From the NCBI GenBank assembly GCA_025774865.1, contig JALGZO010000476.1:1-8400 (forward strand): DNA of 8,400 bases. Direction: 5' to 3'. The position numbers and the translations under genes are program-made. The notes beneath the pieces were generated by a model. The model saw only the letters and a list, made by a program, of their open reading frames with translations, ran no database searches and was not told the DNA's origin. Of this stretch, positions 447-8,400 are shown one piece after another. Positions within the stretch are counted from its first letter, which is position 1, and each line of letters starts with the position of its first letter. This DNA comes from a bacterium. GTDB taxonomy: Bacteria; ARS69.

Positions 447-1199
447 ATGGAATCCCTGACCGCTCCCGCCGCGGCTCGCGAGGGCGAGTGGAGCTCGCGG
501 CTTGCCGTCTTCGTCGCGGGTCTGTTGCTGTTCGAGACGATCTCCGGACTGAGCATCTGGCTCCTTCCGTTCAGCGTACCGAACCAGTTCTCGGTGCTGT
601 TGCACACCCTCGGCGGATTGCTTTTCCTCGTCCCCTTTCTCATCTATCAGACGCAACACTGGCTCAACTACCGGAGCCGGGCGTGGTCTCACTATCTGCT
701 CACGGGATACGTCGCATTCGCCGCAGTGACGATCAACGCCGTGTCCGGCGTGATCCTGACCGTGCAGGGACTGCTGGCGACTCGAATCAGCTATTTCTGG
801 GACATGGTTCACATCGTCACCACGGTTGCGATCGTGGCGTTCCTCGTTCCCCATATCGTCATCGTCTTGATCCGCGACCGGCAGAGCCGCGCCGAGAAGG
901 CGCAGAGCGTGCTGCGCGCGGAGCGGAACTGGGTCTTCGGCGTGCTCGGAATCACGGTCGTCGGCTACGTCATTCTGGGCGGCATGACCTGGTTCTACCA
1001 GCCGACCGAATGGGCGAACGAATTCCCCGCGGACTACGAGTACGACGAGGAGCTCGGTCCGTTCCGCCCGAGTCTCGCGACCACCGCGTCCGGCGGCGCT
1101 TACGACGACCGGTCGCTCACCGGAAGCGCGAGCTGCGGCTCACGTGATGGCGCAGCAGAACGGACCGCAATCCACCCGGTATTGCGGCGGCTGCCATGA
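447..1199 (+). CDS. Membrane cytochrome b domain (N-terminal half of a broken cytochrome b/c protein)
   Basis: The protein has five predicted membrane helices at about residues 19-42, 48-72, 83-110, 116-142 and 161-184. Intramembrane or membrane-edge histidines H53, H71/H82, H122 and H136 are candidate b-heme ligands, as in diheme four-helix cytochrome b proteins that exchange electrons with quinols. A periplasm-like linker follows (PSLATTASGG, then SLTGSASCGS at 223-232). From about residue 233 the frame becomes arginine-rich and unlike a natural protein, ending at 1199. The cytochrome c sequence continues in the +1 frame from about 1144. From memory of related bacterial proteins, the SASCG segment leads directly into a heme-binding stretch of the same polypeptide. 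I therefore read 447-2430 as one ancestral gene interrupted near 1140. The b-domain could still fold alone. Confidence is high that the domain is real, lower on the exact family. Confidence 0.8.
   Translation: MESLTAPAAAREGEWSSRLAVFVAGLLLFETISGLSIWLLPFSVPNQFSVLLHTLGGLLFLVPFLIYQTQHWLNYRSRAWSHYLLTGYVAFAAVTINAVSGVILTVQGLLATRISYFWDMVHIVTTVAIVAFLVPHIVIVLIRDRQSRAEKAQSVLRAERNWVFGVLGITVVGYVILGGMTWFYQPTEWANEFPADYEYDEELGPFRPSLATTASGGAYDDRSLTGSASCGSRDGAAERTAIHPVLRRLP
1128..1150 (+). other. Inferred deletion/frameshift junction inside the cytochrome b/c gene
   Basis: The SCG codons (1131-1139) in one frame are followed within ten bases by GTG ATG GCG CAG (VMAQ) in the +1 frame. Both flanks look like good coding sequence up to this point, so a simple one-base slip would join them with almost nothing between. 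Related proteins, as I recall them, carry roughly 30 residues here, including a heme-attachment cysteine pair. A loss of some 85-100 bases, not a multiple of three, would explain this. Assembly error is an equal possibility. Confidence 0.55.
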
Positions 1200-2430
1200 C
1201 CCCGCTTCGCTTTTCGCGGGGACCAAGAACGTCTTCGCGGAGGACCTCTCGAGCGTTCGCGGGCACCAGGAAGGTGTCTCCTGCCTCGTCTGTCACTCGA
1301 TTCGCGAGACGGATCTCAAGGGCAACGCGAACTACACGATCGTCCAACCCGAGCGGTACATCTACGAGACGGAGGAAGGCGGGTCGGCGAAGTTGCTGTC
1401 GGACTTCCTCATCCGAACGTATCCGAAGAAACACATCGACGTGTTTGCCAAGCGCCTCTTCAAGACGCCGGAGTATTGTGCGGCGTGCCACAAGCAGTTC
1501 ATCGACCAAGAGGTGAACAAGGTCGGTTGGGTTCAGCTCCAGAACCAGTACGACAACTGGCGAAAGAGCAAGTGGAACCCCGAGGGTGAACCGGACAAGG
1601 TCGTCGAATGCCGCGAGTGTCACATGCCGTTGCAGGAATCGAACGATCCCGCGTCCGGCGACGAGCTCGACAGCTACCGCTTCGCGAGCGACGGGAAGCA
1701 CCGCGATCATCGTTTCATCGGCGCGAATTCCTTCGTTCCGCAAGCGCTCCAGCTGGAGAATGCGGCGGAGCACACGGCGCTCACGGAGGCCTGGCTGAGA
1801 GGCGAGCGGCCCATCCCGGAGATCGAGTACAAATGGGCGGCGGGCCCCGCCGTGGGCCTCGAGCTGGAGTGCCCGGACACGGTCCAACCGGGCGAGGACG
1901 TGAAGCTCAGGGTCGTCATCACCTCGAACAAGGTGGGGCACGACTTCCCGACCGGCCCGCTGGACATCATCCAATCCTGGATCAACGTCGAGGTGACGGA
2001 CGATAACGGTGAGGTCGTCTTCGCGAGTGGACACGTGGACGAGAAGCACTTCATCGAGCCGGGCTCGTTCATGTTCAAGGCCGAGCCAGTGGACCGATAC
2101 GGCAACCTGATCGACCGGCACAACCTGTGGGAGATGGTGGGGGTCCGGTACCGTCGCGCGATCTTCCCCGGCTTCAGCGACGCGGCGAGCTATGCATTCG
2201 CGTGTCCCGCGGAGCTGGCCGAGAAGGCGACGGCCGGGGAGCAAGTCGGTCGCGATTTCGAGGTCGCGACTCCGTATCAGGGAGGCTCGCTCCACGTGAA
2301 GGCGCATCTCGACTACCGGAAGGCGGATCAGTACCTCCTGAACTTCATCTTCGGAGAGGATTCGGGGATCACGGCGCCGGTCATCCGGATGGCGTCGACG
2401 GAGAAGACGATCCGGATCGAGGGAACCTAG
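1144..2430 (+). CDS. Multiheme c-type cytochrome domain (C-terminal half of the broken cytochrome b/c protein)
   Basis: Four CxxCH heme-attachment motifs are visible: CGGCH (14-18), CLVCH (47-51), CAACH (112-116) and CRECH (156-160). A conserved block, KQFIDQEVNKVGWVQLQNQY, follows the third. The C-terminal part (about 235-380) looks like a beta-sandwich and holds GHDFPTGPLDIIQSW, a GHxxPTG motif common in multiheme cytochromes whose histidine may be a distal heme ligand, then FIEPGSFMFKAEPVDRYGN and NLWEMVGVRYRR. Its job would be electron transfer in the periplasm, fed by the upstream b domain. The listed start (GTG 1144 or ATG 1147) has no ribosome binding site, and the product has no signal peptide. 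Because c-type heme is attached outside the cytoplasm, it would probably not mature on its own. It therefore reads as the downstream half of a disrupted fusion. The next gene overlaps its stop codon by one base. Confidence 0.85.
   Translation: MMAQQNGPQSTRYCGGCHDPASLFAGTKNVFAEDLSSVRGHQEGVSCLVCHSIRETDLKGNANYTIVQPERYIYETEEGGSAKLLSDFLIRTYPKKHIDVFAKRLFKTPEYCAACHKQFIDQEVNKVGWVQLQNQYDNWRKSKWNPEGEPDKVVECRECHMPLQESNDPASGDELDSYRFASDGKHRDHRFIGANSFVPQALQLENAAEHTALTEAWLRGERPIPEIEYKWAAGPAVGLELECPDTVQPGEDVKLRVVITSNKVGHDFPTGPLDIIQSWINVEVTDDNGEVVFASGHVDEKHFIEPGSFMFKAEPVDRYGNLIDRHNLWEMVGVRYRRAIFPGFSDAASYAFACPAELAEKATAGEQVGRDFEVATPYQGGSLHVKAHLDYRKADQYLLNFIFGEDSGITAPVIRMASTEKTIRIEGT
2419..2424 (+). promoter_or_regulatory. 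Ribosome binding site and coupled start of the CRTAC1-type gene
   Basis: GAGGGA lies 5 bases before GTG at 2430-2432. That GTG shares its first G with the TAG stop (2428-2430) of the cytochrome gene, a layout typical of translational coupling. It fixes the start at 2430 although the frame is open further upstream, because an N-terminal membrane segment begins right after it. Confidence 0.65.
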
Positions 2431-4985
2431 TGTCTCGACGCCAACGGCTGCTGCGACAGACGTTGGTGTATTGCTCGATCCCCGTCGTACTCGTGACCGC
2501 CTTCGTGATCTGGCGGCGGACGGCGGACGACGCCCCGTACGTCGCCGGTGAGGAGACCGAAGGGATCACGCGGGTGCTCGACCGGGAGTCGGCGCAGCCC
2601 GAGTGCCCGCTTCGGTTCACGGAGGTGACCGAGGCGGCGGGGATCGACTTCCGGCACTTTCCGTTCCGACGAACGAGCCAGCTCCCCGAGGACATGGGCT
2701 CCGGTGCCGCCTGGGCCGACTACGACGGGGACGAACGGACGGACCTCTTCCTCGTCAACATCGCGGCGCCGGTCGGCGCCTCCGCCGAGGACTTGTCGAG
2801 ATCCACGGCCACCGACCGGCTCTATCGAAATCTCGGCGACGGGACGTTCGAGGACGTGACCGAATCGGCGGGCGTGGGCGCGGCTCACGTGGGTAACGGG
2901 GCGGCGTGGGCGGACTACGACGTCGATGGCGATCCGGATCTCTTCGTCACGTCTTGGGGCGAGAACATCCTCTGGGAGAACCGGGGCAACGGCACGTTTG
3001 CGGACGTCACAGAGCGCGCCGGGCTCACGGGCGAAGGTTTCTGGGCGGGCGCGGACTGGGGTGACTTCGATCTCGACGGCGATCCGGATCTCTACGTGTG
3101 CGGCTACCTGCAGTACGAGCCTCAGGATCCGGAGGATATGGCGCGCATCGCCGCCGAGTCCGACTTCCCGTTCACGCTGAACCCTTCGTCGTGGCCGCCT
3201 CACCCGAACCGTTTCTACGTGAACCGGGGCGACGGCACGTTCGAGGAACGGGCCGCGATGGCCGGCGTGCTCGGCGAGAACGGAAGGAGCCTCGGCGCCG
3301 CGTGGACGGATCTCGACGGGGACGGGCTCCTCGATCTCTACGTCGCCAACGACGTCTCCGACAACGCGCTGTATCGCAACCGCGGTGACGGCACGTTCGA
3401 GAACGTGAGTTACGAGGCCCTCGTCGCCGACTACCGCGGGGCGATGGGGCTCGCGGTCGGCGACTGGGACGGGGACCTCGATCTCGATCTCTTCGTCACG
3501 CACTGGATCGCGCAGGAGAACGCGCTCTACTCCAACCTGCTGAAGGATCTCGCCGGGGGTGGGGAGAGCGACCAGCTGATGTTCGTGGACGACGCCGATC
3601 GCGTCGGGCTCGGGCAGGCAGCGCTGGACAATATCGGGTGGGGTACGGGCTTCGTCGACCTCGACCTCGACGGCTGGCTCGATCTCTTCGTCGCCAACGG
3701 GAGCACGTTCCAGGAACGCGACGATCCGTCGCGGCTGGTCCCGATGGACCCCCACCTCTACTGGAACCGGGGCCCCGAGGAGGGCTTCTTCGAGGTCGCG
3801 GAAGCCGCCGCACTTCGCACCGATCCCCCCGGCGTGGCGCGTGGCGCGGCGTTCTGTGACTACGACGCCGACGGGGATCTCGACCTTCTGATCTGTCGTC
3901 ACGGTGGGCGTGCGCGGCTCCTTCGCAACGACTCCCGTCGCGGACACGGCGTGACCCTCCGACTGCGGGATGCGGCCGGACGATCCGCGGCCGCCGGAAC
4001 CCGGATCGTCACACACGCGGGGGGCCGCGCTTTCCTCCGGGAGTTCGGCGGCGGACCGTCCTACTTGTCTCAGCACGCGTCCGATGTCGTCACCGGGCTC
4101 GGGGAAGTCACGCGGGTCGACAGCGTCGAGGTGACATGGGCCGGAGGGTCGCGCGAAGTCTGGCGCGATCTGGGGGTCGATCGAACGTGGGTCCTCGAAT
4201 CGGGTGCGGCACCCGCGCTCGTCTCGAGCGGTGGGGCCGGATCCGAGGGGATGACTCGCGAAGAAATCCGCCGCTTCTGGAAACTGAAACGCGAAGCCGA
4301 CGATCTCGTTCTCGCCCGGCGATGGGAGGAGGCCCTCGCGGCTCTGGACCGGGTGCTGGCGCTCGACCCCCATCACGAGGACTCGCTCTATGGTCGTGGG
4401 AACTGCTTCCTCGAACTCGGACGGTACGGCGACGCCGAGCAGGCCTGGCGGGAGCTCGTCCGGGTGAATCCGGCCGCCGCCCGCGCCTGGCTGCAGATCG
4501 GGCTCGTCCACTCGCTCCCCGCGGCCGGAGACCTGTTCGATCTGGCCCGGGCCGACGAGGCTCTCCAGGAGGCTCACCGGATCAACCCCGAGAGTTCGGG
4601 CCCCTTGATCCTCCAAGGAGAGGCCGCGCTCGCCCGCGGCGATTTCGCCGCCGCGGAGTCCATCCTGACGTCGGCGTGGAACATGAACGCTCAAGCCACC
4701 TCGGCGCTCTATCTTTGCGGATACCTCGCGTGGAAGCGCGGTGAGCAGGAGCCGGCCCATGAGCTCCTCGGCCGGGCCGTCCAGTCCCTAGCCCGCTCGG
4801 CTCCGAAGCACGGCGTCCTCGGGGAGGGCGACACGAAGTCGGCAGACCTGGAGACCGATCGCCGCCGATCGGCCGGACGGCGCCTCTTCGCGGAGTGCTT
4901 GGATTTCCTGCGGGAGGCCGGGCCCGACGTCGACCCCGTGGCGGCCTTCTCCCGGGTGGACGAGCAGCTCGCCCGACTGCCCTGA
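2430..4985 (+). CDS. CRTAC1-type FG-GAP/VCBS propeller protein with ASPIC/UnbV domain and TPR tail
   Basis: The protein is 851 residues from the GTG start. A basic start (SRRQRLLRQ) and one hydrophobic segment (about 12-28) form a signal anchor, so the rest should lie outside the cytoplasm. Seven calcium-type DxDxDG-like loops start at residues 97, 162, 212, 294, 345, 410 and 477 (for example DYDVDGDPDL, DFDLDGDPDL, DLDGDGLLDL). They alternate with copies of the pattern LYRNxGDGTFEDVTExAG, as expected for FG-GAP/VCBS beta-propeller repeats. Residues 505-590 match the ASPIC/UnbV domain (GGGPSYLSQ, then VTGLG and VEVTWAGGSREVW). From about 625 to 790 there are TPR-like helical repeats (EEALAALDRVLALDP, YGDAEQAWRELVRVNP). 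No catalytic residues are evident; a binding or assembly role is likely but unproven. It is coupled to the cytochrome gene, so both products are probably made together. The DNA repeat structure produces long antisense frames that I discount. Confidence 0.88.
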   Translation: MSRRQRLLRQTLVYCSIPVVLVTAFVIWRRTADDAPYVAGEETEGITRVLDRESAQPECPLRFTEVTEAAGIDFRHFPFRRTSQLPEDMGSGAAWADYDGDERTDLFLVNIAAPVGASAEDLSRSTATDRLYRNLGDGTFEDVTESAGVGAAHVGNGAAWADYDVDGDPDLFVTSWGENILWENRGNGTFADVTERAGLTGEGFWAGADWGDFDLDGDPDLYVCGYLQYEPQDPEDMARIAAESDFPFTLNPSSWPPHPNRFYVNRGDGTFEERAAMAGVLGENGRSLGAAWTDLDGDGLLDLYVANDVSDNALYRNRGDGTFENVSYEALVADYRGAMGLAVGDWDGDLDLDLFVTHWIAQENALYSNLLKDLAGGGESDQLMFVDDADRVGLGQAALDNIGWGTGFVDLDLDGWLDLFVANGSTFQERDDPSRLVPMDPHLYWNRGPEEGFFEVAEAAALRTDPPGVARGAAFCDYDADGDLDLLICRHGGRARLLRNDSRRGHGVTLRLRDAAGRSAAAGTRIVTHAGGRAFLREFGGGPSYLSQHASDVVTGLGEVTRVDSVEVTWAGGSREVWRDLGVDRTWVLESGAAPALVSSGGAGSEGMTREEIRRFWKLKREADDLVLARRWEEALAALDRVLALDPHHEDSLYGRGNCFLELGRYGDAEQAWRELVRVNPAAARAWLQIGLVHSLPAAGDLFDLARADEALQEAHRINPESSGPLILQGEAALARGDFAAAESILTSAWNMNAQATSALYLCGYLAWKRGEQEPAHELLGRAVQSLARSAPKHGVLGEGDTKSADLETDRRRSAGRRLFAECLDFLREAGPDVDPVAAFSRVDEQLARLP
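2928..3093 (+). repeat. Direct repeat inside the propeller gene
   Basis: GGCGATCCGGATCTCT occurs at 2928-2943 and again at 3078-3093, exactly 150 bases apart. This equals one 50-residue propeller repeat. It reflects the encoded GDPDL loops and suggests fairly recent internal duplication or strong codon conservation between the second and third modules. Confidence 0.7.
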
Positions 4986-5092: not shown

Positions 5093-6499
5093 ATGCCGTT
5101 GCCGCCGTACAAGATCAAGGTCGTGGAGCCGGTCCTCGTCTGGGGCCGCGAGACCCGCCTGGAGCAGGCCCGCCGGGCGGGCTTCAACCTGTTCCAGATC
5201 CCCGCCCGCTTCGTCGCCGTCGACTTGCTCACCGACAGCGGCACCTCGGCGATGAGCGATCGCCAGTGGGCCGGCATGATGCGAGGCGACGAGGCCTACG
5301 CCGGGAGCGACAACTACTACCAGCTGGAGCAGGCGGTCCGGCAGATCTTCGGATTCCGTCACGTCATCCCGACGCACCAGGGACGGGCCGCCGAACACCT
5401 GCTCTTCTCCGTGATGGTCGGGCGCGACGACGTCATCCCGTCGAACCATCACTTCGATACGACTCGCGCCAACATCGAGGTGGCGGGAGGAGAGGCCGTC
5501 GACCTCGCGGTGGAACAGACGGACGACCTCGGATCGCAGCACCCCTTCAAGGGGAACATCGATCTCGCTCGCGCCGAGCGGCTCGTCCGGGAGCTGGGTC
5601 GCGACCGCGTTCCGCTGGCGATGATCACGCTCACCGATAACACGGGCGGCGGGCAGCCGGTCTCGCTCGAGAACCTCACCGCCTACCACCGGCTGCTCGA
5701 TGAGCACGGCATCCCCCTCTTCATCGACGCGTGCCGGTTCGCGGAGAACGCGTACTTCGTCCGCGAACGGGAAGGTGCCCACGCGGGTCGGTCGATCCTG
5801 GACATCACCGCGGATACGTTCTCGCTCGCCGAGGGATGCACGATGAGCGCCAAGAAGGACGGACTGGCGAACATCGGAGGTTTCCTGGCGCTCCGCGAAG
5901 AGGCGCTCGCGCGCAAGATCAAGGAACGGCTCGTCCTGTACGAAGGATTCGAGACGTACGGCGGCTTGGCCGGCCGCGACCTCGAAGCGGTGGCGATCGG
6001 GCTGCGAGAGGTCGTGGACGAGCATTACCTGGCCCATCGGATCGAGCAGGTCGCGTACCTCGGCGAGCGACTTCGTGAGAACGGAATCCCGGTGCTCGTC
6101 CCCTTCGGCGGTCACGCGATCTACCTCGACGCCGCCGCGTTCCTGCCGCACGTCCCGCGCGAGCTCTATCCGGGGCAGGCGCTCGCCGTGGCTCTCTATC
6201 TCGAGTCGGGGATTCGATCGGTGGAGATCGGCGGCGTCATGTTCGGCAAGAAGGATCCCGAGACGGGAGAGCTACTCTTGCCGAGGCACGAGCTCGTCCG
6301 GCTCGCGATTCCGCGACGCGTCTACATGACGGAACATCTCGACTTCGTCGCCGAAAGCCTCGCCCGTCTTCACGAGAGGCGGGAGGAGATCGGGGGGTTC
6401 GAGTTCGAGTACCAGGCGGACGTCCTGCGGCACTTCACGGCGCGGTTCCGACCGGCGCGGAGCGCACCGAAGCCGTCGAAGATCTCGATCGAGGATTGA
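5093..6499 (+). CDS. tnaA: Tryptophanase (PLP-dependent beta-eliminating lyase)
   Basis: The 468-residue protein aligns by eye along its full length with E. coli TnaA (471 residues). It should convert L-tryptophan to indole, pyruvate and ammonia in the cytoplasm. Visible landmarks are DLLTDSGTSA (44-53), MMRGDEAYAGS with the catalytic-type Tyr69, IPTHQGRAAEH (92-102), AMITLTDNTGGGQPVSL (176-192), RFAENAYF (215-222) and the PLP lysine in MSAKKD (Lys255). Three positions separate tryptophanase from tyrosine phenol-lyase. Asp122 (FDTT), Ile379 (VEIG) and His447 (LRHFTAR) match tryptophanase Asp137, Ile396 and His463; the phenol-lyase has Thr, Arg and Phe there. It lacks the short insertion that E. 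coli has near residues 113-127, and has a charged tail of about 15 residues after HFTARF. No tnaB-like transporter or TnaC leader is seen nearby. Substrate choice is inferred from these residues, not measured. Confidence 0.93.
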   Translation: MPLPPYKIKVVEPVLVWGRETRLEQARRAGFNLFQIPARFVAVDLLTDSGTSAMSDRQWAGMMRGDEAYAGSDNYYQLEQAVRQIFGFRHVIPTHQGRAAEHLLFSVMVGRDDVIPSNHHFDTTRANIEVAGGEAVDLAVEQTDDLGSQHPFKGNIDLARAERLVRELGRDRVPLAMITLTDNTGGGQPVSLENLTAYHRLLDEHGIPLFIDACRFAENAYFVREREGAHAGRSILDITADTFSLAEGCTMSAKKDGLANIGGFLALREEALARKIKERLVLYEGFETYGGLAGRDLEAVAIGLREVVDEHYLAHRIEQVAYLGERLRENGIPVLVPFGGHAIYLDAAAFLPHVPRELYPGQALAVALYLESGIRSVEIGGVMFGKKDPETGELLLPRHELVRLAIPRRVYMTEHLDFVAESLARLHERREEIGGFEFEYQADVLRHFTARFRPARSAPKPSKISIED

Positions 6500-6550: not shown

Positions 6551-6817
6551 CTACCGCAGCCAGATCATGCGGCGCGAGGCCGTCGGCGTCTTACCCGTCT
6601 CGAGACGGTACAGGTAGACGCCGCTCGCCACGGGTGACCTTCGTTGGTCGAGGCCGCGCCACGCGACCGAGTGAATTCCCTCGTCGCGGAACTCGTCCAC
6701 GAGAGTCGCGACCAGCCGTCCCTGCAGATCGAAGATCGCCAATCGGGTCGCTCCCGCCGCCGGCACCCGATACCGAATCACCGTCGTCGTCCGCGCCGGG
6801 TTCGGGCGGTTCTGGAA
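6551..6817 (-). other. C-terminal FlgD-like / type IX-style sorting domain within the pentaheme cytochrome
   Basis: This is the final beta-sandwich of the cytochrome, with the order NPxRTTT, an RYRVP strand, IFDLQGRLVATL, WRGLD and GVYLYRL. In FCB-group bacteria, tails of this kind direct cargo through the type IX secretion system and are then cleaved or anchored. Whether this organism has that system cannot be seen here. Confidence 0.75.
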
Positions 6818-8400
6818 GAGCAGCGGCGTCCGGCTCGCGTCGGCGAGGTCTCCCACCGCGGTCACGATCGTCGACCACTCCTCTTCCTCCATGAGGTGAC
6901 CGAAGTACGGCGGCGCGACGTCCGTCAGCGGGTTTCCGAAGCCGTCTTCGGTCCAGCCCTTCGCGTCGACGAGAAAGCGGAACGAGCGACGGTAGATCAA
7001 CCGCGCCCTCGCTCGCAGTGTGCCGCCGCCCGGAGGAACCTGGAACGTGTATTGCGTGACGTCCGTGGCGAGGGCGGGAATGCGATTGTCGAAGAGGATG
7101 CCGGTGGCGTCGGTGAAGAACGTCGGACCGTGACCGCCCGAGTCGTGGACCACCTTCGCGTAGAACTTGCCGGGGAGGCCGGCGTAGTAGCCCTGCCCCG
7201 GGTCCCCGATGCCTCCGAGATCGTGCACCACCTGGGCGCTGTCGGCCTCGAGCGGCATCCCGTCTTCCTCACGCCACGCCTCGACCAGGAGGATCATGTT
7301 CCGGATCGTGGTGCCCGTCGGAACGTGGTGCCCCGTCTGGTCGTTCGTGATCGACACCTCGAGGTCGAGATCGAGTCCATTGACGACGCCCTGAATCGTC
7401 ATCGCGACGGCGTTCTCGAGATAGACGGGGGTCGTCCCCTCGATTCGGTGATGGCGAATCGTCTCCGGATCGCGTCGCGGAACCTCATTGTCCAGGTTGC
7501 ACGCGTAGACGCCCCCGTACGAGGGCATGTGACAGTCGGTGCAGGACGCGTAGAACGGGGACTCCGGATCCGCGTAGGGCGTCACGACCCACTCGCCGTA
7601 CGTCGGCTCGGAAATCACCCCGTTCGCCTCCTCGAAGTCGCCGTCGCCGTCCGGGTCGTTCTTGTCCTGGTGACATGAGGCGCACATCGCGGCGTCCAGC
7701 TGAGGCTGGTAGGAAGGCCGCATCCACGGGGGGCCCTGGAAGCTGGTGTCGCCGAGGGTGCCGTATTCCACCGGCCCCGACGCCATCGAGGGCCGCGTGA
7801 TGGTCACGACGCCGGGGTAGATCCCCGGGAAGTTCGTCATCGACTCGTCGATGTGAGCGAACTTGTGACAGACCTCGCACGACACCCCGTGGAGCGCTCC
7901 CGTGGAGAGGCTGTCGATGTCCTCGAGGGCGCGGAACGGCGCCTGGATCCATGGCTCGGGTTGGTGACAGGAGGCACACTCGGACTCGGGGTTGGTGGCA
8001 GCGTGCTCGGAGTCGCGCGTGTAGACGAACCCGCCCAAGCCGCCCGCGGTGCCCGTACCGTTGTAGACGTCGTAAACCCACGCGTTGGTGCCCGCTTTCG
8101 CCATCGGAGAGTCGTCCCAATGGTCCACTTGCACATTGTGGCAAGCACCGCAGGAGTTGGGCGCCACGAACATGTAGGTGGTGTCCTCTTCCTGGGGTAT
8201 GGGCGAGAGCTCGATCTCGAGGTCGGGCATCGGCGCGTCGACCGTATGCCCCACGTTGTAGAAGCCCTTCAAGGCCGCGACGATCACCAGGCCGGTTCCC
8301 GTGGCGCCGGGTAGGTCGAACGTGCCGTCGGGCGCCGAGATCGTCGACACCGTCGTTGCCTGCAAGGTCACGAGAGCACCGCCGGCGGGCAACTGGGTCG
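6551..8400 (-). CDS. Surface-sorted pentaheme c-type cytochrome (5' end beyond the right edge)
   Basis: The frame is open to the window edge, so the true start and any signal peptide lie outside. Residues here are numbered from the TTG codon at 8392. Residues 1-60 resemble a carboxypeptidase regulatory-like beta-sandwich (GALVTLQ, APDGTFDLPG, VAALKGFYNV). Five CxxCH motifs follow: CGACH (81), CASCH (139), CEVCH (172), CASCH (237) and CTDCH (284). An acidic calcium-type loop, DPDGDGDF (246-253), lies between the last two. GHHVPTG (354-360) then opens a beta-rich region with the same GHxxPTG motif as the other cytochrome. The last 86 residues (528-613) match FlgD-like/type IX sorting domains: NRPNPARTTT, LAIFDLQGRLVATL, SGVYLYRL and a basic end (RRMIWLR). 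This predicts secretion and outer-surface attachment. The role is probably extracellular or outer-membrane electron transfer, or an enzyme of unknown substrate. It converges on tryptophanase. Confidence 0.88.
   Translation of the reverse strand, partial: TQLPAGGALVTLQATTVSTISAPDGTFDLPGATGTGLVIVAALKGFYNVGHTVDAPMPDLEIELSPIPQEEDTTYMFVAPNSCGACHNVQVDHWDDSPMAKAGTNAWVYDVYNGTGTAGGLGGFVYTRDSEHAATNPESECASCHQPEPWIQAPFRALEDIDSLSTGALHGVSCEVCHKFAHIDESMTNFPGIYPGVVTITRPSMASGPVEYGTLGDTSFQGPPWMRPSYQPQLDAAMCASCHQDKNDPDGDGDFEEANGVISEPTYGEWVVTPYADPESPFYASCTDCHMPSYGGVYACNLDNEVPRRDPETIRHHRIEGTTPVYLENAVAMTIQGVVNGLDLDLEVSITNDQTGHHVPTGTTIRNMILLVEAWREEDGMPLEADSAQVVHDLGGIGDPGQGYYAGLPGKFYAKVVHDSGGHGPTFFTDATGILFDNRIPALATDVTQYTFQVPPGGGTLRARARLIYRRSFRFLVDAKGWTEDGFGNPLTDVAPPYFGHLMEEEEWSTIVTAVGDLADASRTPLLFQNRPNPARTTTVIRYRVPAAGATRLAIFDLQGRLVATLVDEFRDEGIHSVAWRGLDQRRSPVASGVYLYRLETGKTPTASRRMIWLR

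Follow-up and report, generated by a model that had tools for sequence, protein, structure and literature searches.

Most of the surface cytochromes known in detail are lipoproteins docked to an outer-membrane porin. At the inner membrane, CbcL combines a membrane domain containing histidines with a periplasmic multiheme domain in one protein. The type IX secretion system (T9SS) is established as a means of moving folded proteins across the outer membrane. The pentaheme protein considered here is nearest in structure to the low-potential pentaheme cytochrome c552 (LPC) of Thermochromatium tepidum (5ZE8), which has five hemes followed by an Ig-like domain. This cytochrome has no clear assigned function; it has been grouped by structure with Geobacter ExtKL and the pentahemes of cable bacteria (sPHC), all of them related to an archaeal cytochrome nanowire (PMC11976967). 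ExtKL itself is described as a periplasmic pentaheme protein from the cluster of an outer-membrane conduit for metal reduction (PMC6148476).

What is new here is a pentaheme core of this known fold bearing several lineage-specific surface tags, so that one core is paired with a range of sorting systems for the cell surface.

The window protein and its fold

The stretch of DNA analyzed (the window, 8,400 nucleotides) has the following features:

447 to 2430, plus strand: membrane domain and periplasmic multiheme domain in a CbcL-like layout, the second domain being homologous to the pentaheme cytochrome; intact in another genome (locus L052)
6551 to 8398, minus strand: pentaheme cytochrome gene, the 3′ 615 codons and stop codon of an open frame (stop at 6551 to 6553)
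6554 to 6823, minus strand: T9SS type A C-terminal sorting domain (residues 526–615), from TIGR04183 and fold
6863 to 7429, minus strand: Ig-like beta domain with a GHHVPTG motif, from predicted strands; within the 5ZE8 match
6869 to 8179, minus strand: pentaheme and Ig-like core (residues 74–510), from the 5ZE8 match
7529 to 7543, minus strand: heme site 5, CTDCH, then an invariant Met; invariant in sequence
7628 to 7657, minus strand: acidic EF-hand-like loop DPDGDGDFEE, from sequence; family-conserved
7670 to 7684, minus strand: heme site 4, CASCH, then an invariant QDKND; invariant in sequence
7865 to 7879, minus strand: heme site 3, CEVCH; invariant in sequence
7964 to 7978, minus strand: heme site 2, CASCH; invariant in sequence
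8138 to 8152, minus strand: heme site 1, CGACH; invariant in sequence
8189 to 8398, minus strand: CarboxypepD_reg-like beta domain (residues 1–70 of the visible part)

The pentaheme frame is truncated at 8400 by the end of its contig (C480), in a MAG that is 92.65% complete with 8.3% estimated contamination. The last 114 bases of the window overlap exactly with the end of another contig of the same genome (C51), and the joined frame encodes a 649-aa protein whose first 34 codons lie on C51. The earlier note, made from the sequence alone, had proposed extending the contig past 8400 to find the signal peptide and any additional hemes: the N-terminus of the joined protein, MPAPLFRCIAVAAVMLVLPTAPRA-QVSG, is judged by eye to be a signal peptide, while the part encoded on C51 contains no extra heme motifs. 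The nearest orthologue (L048, 68% identical overall) has the same layout, its own signal peptide included; since L048 and a further homologue (L049) both show the layout of the window protein, a chimaera is made less likely. Upstream of the pentaheme gene on C51, and divergent from it, lies a squalene/phytoene synthase gene (Pfam E 6e-50).

An N-terminal regulatory-like sandwich, five CxxCH sites, and a calcium-type loop had also been read from the letters in that note, and all three were recovered. The N-terminal domain is predicted by AlphaFold to form strands at pLDDT 89–96, and in L048 matches CarbopepD_reg_2 at E 1.6e-6, which is under the Pfam cut-off. There are exactly five CxxCH motifs (NSCGACHN, SECASCHQ, VSCEVCHK, MCASCHQD, and SCTDCHMP), with the Cys and His of all five invariant among 56 aligned homologues from several phyla; heme 1 is spaced CxxxCH in 2 of the 56. 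In both Sedimenticola copies (L074 and L084), heme 1 reads CASFCH. The acidic loop (NDPDGDGDFEE), a putative calcium-binding site, is conserved in the family, and its opening HQDKND is invariant.

The AlphaFold model of the protein, computed with 56 sequences, has a mean pLDDT of 87.3 and a pTM of 0.81. In a fold search, residues 74–510 match 5ZE8 with Z 24.7 and an rmsd of 2.8 over 346 aligned residues (21% identity); the row below it, at Z 11.4, covers the tail only. A profile search independently retrieves 5ZE8 (E 5e-7), with the MccA sulfite reductase a weak second match (E 2.6e-4). Profile and fold searches were needed to find this relation, since single-sequence phmmer of the visible protein against the PDB gave no match at E 0.1. 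The window core thus has the LPC/PHC-type pentaheme and Ig-like fold of T. tepidum c552, and is related to ExtKL. It differs from 5ZE8 in the W..S.H segment that follows heme 1, where a Met (M99) replaces His, and in the parallel segment following heme 4, where a Tyr (Y275) stands; the whole protein also adds the N-terminal CarboxypepD_reg-like domain and the T9SS sorting tail.

Several better-known families were considered and rejected. Similarity to the ExtKL equivalog model (NF040886) is weak, at 20.8 bits against a cut-off of 250, and ExtKL is described as periplasmic, with no sorting tail described (PMC6148476), while the window protein has a T9SS tail. The OmcA/MtrC decaheme model (TIGR03507) gives 26.6 bits against a cut-off of 209.3; there is weak local similarity around hemes 4–5 and the Ig-like domain, and a proposed surface location is shared, but the window protein has five hemes, not ten. 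A nitrite reductase of the NrfA type would be expected to show CxxCK, and all five motifs here are CxxCH.

Sorting tail and export route

A FlgD-like sorting tail had been suggested for the protein. Its match to FlgD_ig is weak, and the tail scores 31.2 bits against the T9SS type A model TIGR04183 (cut-off 23), with orthologue tails at 25.2 and 37.2 bits. In the fold search the tail matches the C-terminal domains of PorU (Z 11.2) and PorZ (Z 9.8).

The type IX-like route put forward in the earlier note is supported by the genome in which it had suggested looking: SprA (530.7 bits, cut-off 200, with neighbors in frame), PorU (515.4 bits, cut-off 420), and PorV (240.7 bits, cut-off 90) all score over their cut-offs, PorV adjoining PorU on contig C615, and many further proteins with a T9SS tail are encoded. 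Neither of the two findings that the note had named as fatal to its reading was obtained, since the genome does have T9SS genes and the joined protein does have a signal peptide. In its signal peptide, its sorting domain over cut-off, and the accompanying SprA, PorU, and PorV genes, the window protein resembles other T9SS type A cargo. T9SS would accordingly be the system that carries it across the outer membrane, and it is very likely located outside the cell.

The protein differs from such cargo in its passenger, a five-heme cytochrome, which is unusual. It is not unique to the window, since an unrelated multiheme frame with four CxxCH motifs (L019; G059:C56) also ends in a T9SS-like tail. 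A search of open-access papers found none on T9SS-exported multiheme cytochromes.

Distribution and surface tags of the core

One scan of 84,980 species genomes yielded 58 loci with the pentaheme core. Most are in Planctomycetota and Myxococcota; the remainder are in Binatia/Deltaproteobacteria, Latescibacterota, an acidobacterial MAG, two Sedimenticola MAGs, and an Ignavibacterium contig. The setting of poorly studied FCB-related phyla in which the protein had earlier been placed is therefore too narrow, the core being found mostly in Planctomycetota and Myxococcota and with other surface tags. No relatives of the core were found in viral contigs. Over 426 residues the heme core and Ig domain are 52–75% identical to those of the window, and the core alignment has 78 invariant columns among 56 sequences.

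The homologues share a common end, GHLMEE, and diverge after it. What follows is a T9SS domain in the window protein, L048, and L049; a MYXO-CTERM sequence, shown by experiment to be a cell-surface signal (PMC11980579), in Myxococcota; IPTL/PEP-CTERM-like ends in five members; dockerin-like repeats in Phycisphaerae; Cys-rich repeats in Binatia/Deltaproteobacteria MAGs; and other domains or nothing in the rest of the family. Three NCBI models (TIGR04183, TIGR03901, and TIGR04174) score over cut-off, each in different members.

The cognate sorting machinery follows a similar pattern. SprA is over cut-off in 3 of 49 host genomes: the window's, that of L048, and that of the Ignavibacterium, whose core protein is truncated before its tail by the end of the available sequence. 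In the Latescibacterota genome, which encodes a T9SS-tailed member, SprA is represented by just a 24.5-bit fragment, an exception that may reflect incompleteness or divergence. An MrtX-like myxosortase match of at least 90 bits accompanies 9 of 9 members with a strict MYXO tail, as against 3 of the 39 others (Fisher p 1.3e-7, a value that overstates independence because tags and machinery both follow lineage). The strict counts come from an automatic tail classification and leave out four members with MYXO-CTERM-like tails (L076, L083, L091, and L105). Three of these (L076, L091, and L105) are the non-strict members with strong MrtX-like matches, and their tails look MYXO-like by eye; L083 shares this kind of tail but lacks a strong match. 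The curated MrtX cut-off is passed by only one of the MrtX-like matches of at least 90 bits. Across the 49 genomes, tag and machinery thus largely match; as both follow phylogeny, not every genome counts as an independent case.

In a tree of the core, the window sequence pairs with L048 (support 97) inside a Planctomycetota-rich set, and the surface tags require at least 12 changes. This would fit transfer between phyla with replacement of the tag, on a tree whose deep branches are weak.

Electron partners and alternative roles

The neighbor genes of the core loci were checked by tblastn. A NapH-like 4Fe-4S/TPR membrane protein adjoins the core in nine loci, on either side, with its aligned region 4–248 bases from the core frame; the other copies are 49–56% identical to the one in L048. 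NapH-like proteins have been proposed to move quinol electrons across the membrane (PMC8238504). In L048 the T9SS-tailed pentaheme gene is followed by the NapH-like gene and that of a second five-heme protein, and then, on the other strand, by ApbE and DUF3570. This placement (L048 9782–12023) of an ApbE flavin transferase gene beside DUF3570, in one cluster with the pentaheme and NapH-like genes, sets the enzyme next to a known substrate family, DUF3570 being a substrate of ApbE (PMC8238504). No NapH-like gene lies beside the window pentaheme gene in the C480–C51 join; the genome has NapH homologues on contigs C624 and C56 (55 and 45% identity).

The second multiheme gene of the window is itself a candidate partner. 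Its two frames (447–1199 and 1144–2430) correspond to one intact gene in L052; in the window there is a deletion and frameshift near 1137–1144, with the stretch around the first heme site missing, which may be an assembly error or a real lesion. Its membrane domain has four histidines in hydrophobic helices, and its multiheme domain shares homology with the pentaheme core, the two window proteins matching each other at E 1e-9. An AlphaFold model of the multiheme domain of 1144–2430, from three sequences only, has a mean pLDDT of 41.7, too low to lend support to any reading. The likeness to CbcL is one of layout, a membrane domain joined to a periplasmic multiheme domain; compared with CbcL, the product has fewer hemes, and its multiheme portion is akin to the pentaheme core. 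Directly downstream, at 2430–4985, is a gene for an FG-GAP/ASPIC-UnbV/TPR protein. L052 also has a gene of the 447–2430 type together with an FG-GAP/ASPIC-UnbV neighbor (46% over 390 aa) near its pentaheme gene. From these associations we infer that the 447–2430 product is a possible inner-membrane electron source for the pentaheme protein.

The signal peptide, five CxxCH motifs, LPC/PHC-type fold, T9SS sorting domain, and T9SS core genes, all read from sequence, suggest how the protein might work. We think it probable that it is a periplasm-assembled, surface-displayed pentaheme c-type cytochrome, its hemes relaying electrons between the quinone pool and a surface partner. It would cross the inner membrane by Sec, receive its five covalent hemes and fold in the periplasm, and pass folded through SprA and PorV; PorU would then remove the sorting tail, and the mature cytochrome would end up on the outer membrane or outside it. 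At that site its five hemes would relay electrons between the quinone pool and the surface partner, perhaps an extracellular acceptor, perhaps a secreted dehydrogenase. Candidate sources on the cell side are an Fe-S quinol protein of the NapH-like kind and a fusion of cytochrome b with a multiheme domain, like that at 447–2430. Other phyla would mount the pentaheme core on surface anchors of their own.

The earlier note had named the protein a candidate for extracellular electron transfer. Export by T9SS is supported; the electron transfer stays plausible and unproven. In its favor are the NapH-like neighbor in nine loci and the place of the related ExtKL in a metal-reduction conduit cluster. 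A conduit of the MtrCAB porin-cytochrome type was rejected, the 92.65% complete MAG having no match to the MtrB/PioB porin (PF11854, E 0.001), and this result weighs against a relay to the surface. Also on that side are the distance of the NapH homologues from the pentaheme gene in the window's genome, the missing convincing SprA of the T9SS-tailed Latescibacterota member, the absence of an assigned function for T. tepidum c552, and the 8.3% estimated contamination of the MAG.

Several other roles for the core have been weighed against this one. Electrons might instead come from outside: secreted dehydrogenases (for example of the GSDH/PQQ type, oxidizing sugars or alcohols) would reduce the core, which would pass the electrons inward or to a mediator, rather than serving as a terminal conduit to minerals. 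In two Sedimenticola MAGs the gene immediately upstream of the core does encode a GSDH-type sugar dehydrogenase, a GSDH domain is part of the core polypeptide in L099 (Pfam E 1.3e-52), and surface display would suit a partner enzyme with a soluble substrate. These are only 3 of 58 loci, however, two of them (L074 and L084) close relatives of each other, and the window has no GSDH near its core; this reading seems unlikely. A catalytic role, with one heme open or oddly ligated and a small nitrogen or sulfur compound as substrate, could explain the unusually strong conservation across phyla (52–75% identity), the many invariant non-heme residues (W94, N105, W107, D110, and QDKND after heme 4), the M99 and Y275 positions where 5ZE8 has a His after heme 1 and in the parallel segment after heme 4, and the weak profile match to MccA. 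None of the known catalytic heme motifs, such as CxxCK, is present, though; the closest structure, 5ZE8, has no assigned function to lend, and an AlphaFold model built without hemes does not reveal how they are ligated. We regard a surface-displayed redox enzyme as decidedly improbable.

The most conservative suggestion is that the protein is an ordinary periplasmic electron carrier, its T9SS-like tail an Ig-type domain with no role in secretion. Ig-like tail folds are common, with many matches to unrelated proteins at Z near 8–9, and the related ExtKL has been described as periplasmic (PMC6148476). Against this, the tail exceeds NCBI's own T9SS cut-off and its best-matching folds include the C-terminal domains of PorU and PorZ, many other proteins of the genome bear like tails alongside SprA, PorU, and PorV, and homologues elsewhere carry other surface tags instead, so that a periplasmic location is very hard to credit.

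The core, then, looks like a widely shared means of moving electrons at the cell surface. More tentatively, a surface-displayed electron relay of this kind might be general: the conserved core could possibly be a portable redox module for the cell surface, passed among at least five phyla and mounted anew each time on whichever sorting system the host has (T9SS, myxosortase, exosortase-like, or dockerin-like), exchanging electrons outside the cell without a classical MtrB-type conduit. If the coupling of one core to several sorting systems is confirmed, it would offer a way to recognize surface redox activity from sequence in little-known phyla (Planctomycetota, Myxococcota, and that of the window). 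It also makes two ideas testable, the export of a multiheme cytochrome by T9SS and its electrical connection to the cell without a known conduit.

Two further observations concern individual loci. In L099 (9288–16313), a single 2915-aa frame extends the core with GSDH, PKD, and malectin domains and a further two CxxCH motifs. In the window (5093–6499) and in L072 (3596–4927), from two phyla, a tryptophanase/tyrosine-phenol-lyase-like gene converges on the pentaheme gene; the two are 52% identical, and L072 has two copies. This linkage may be due to chance or to a shared transferred block.
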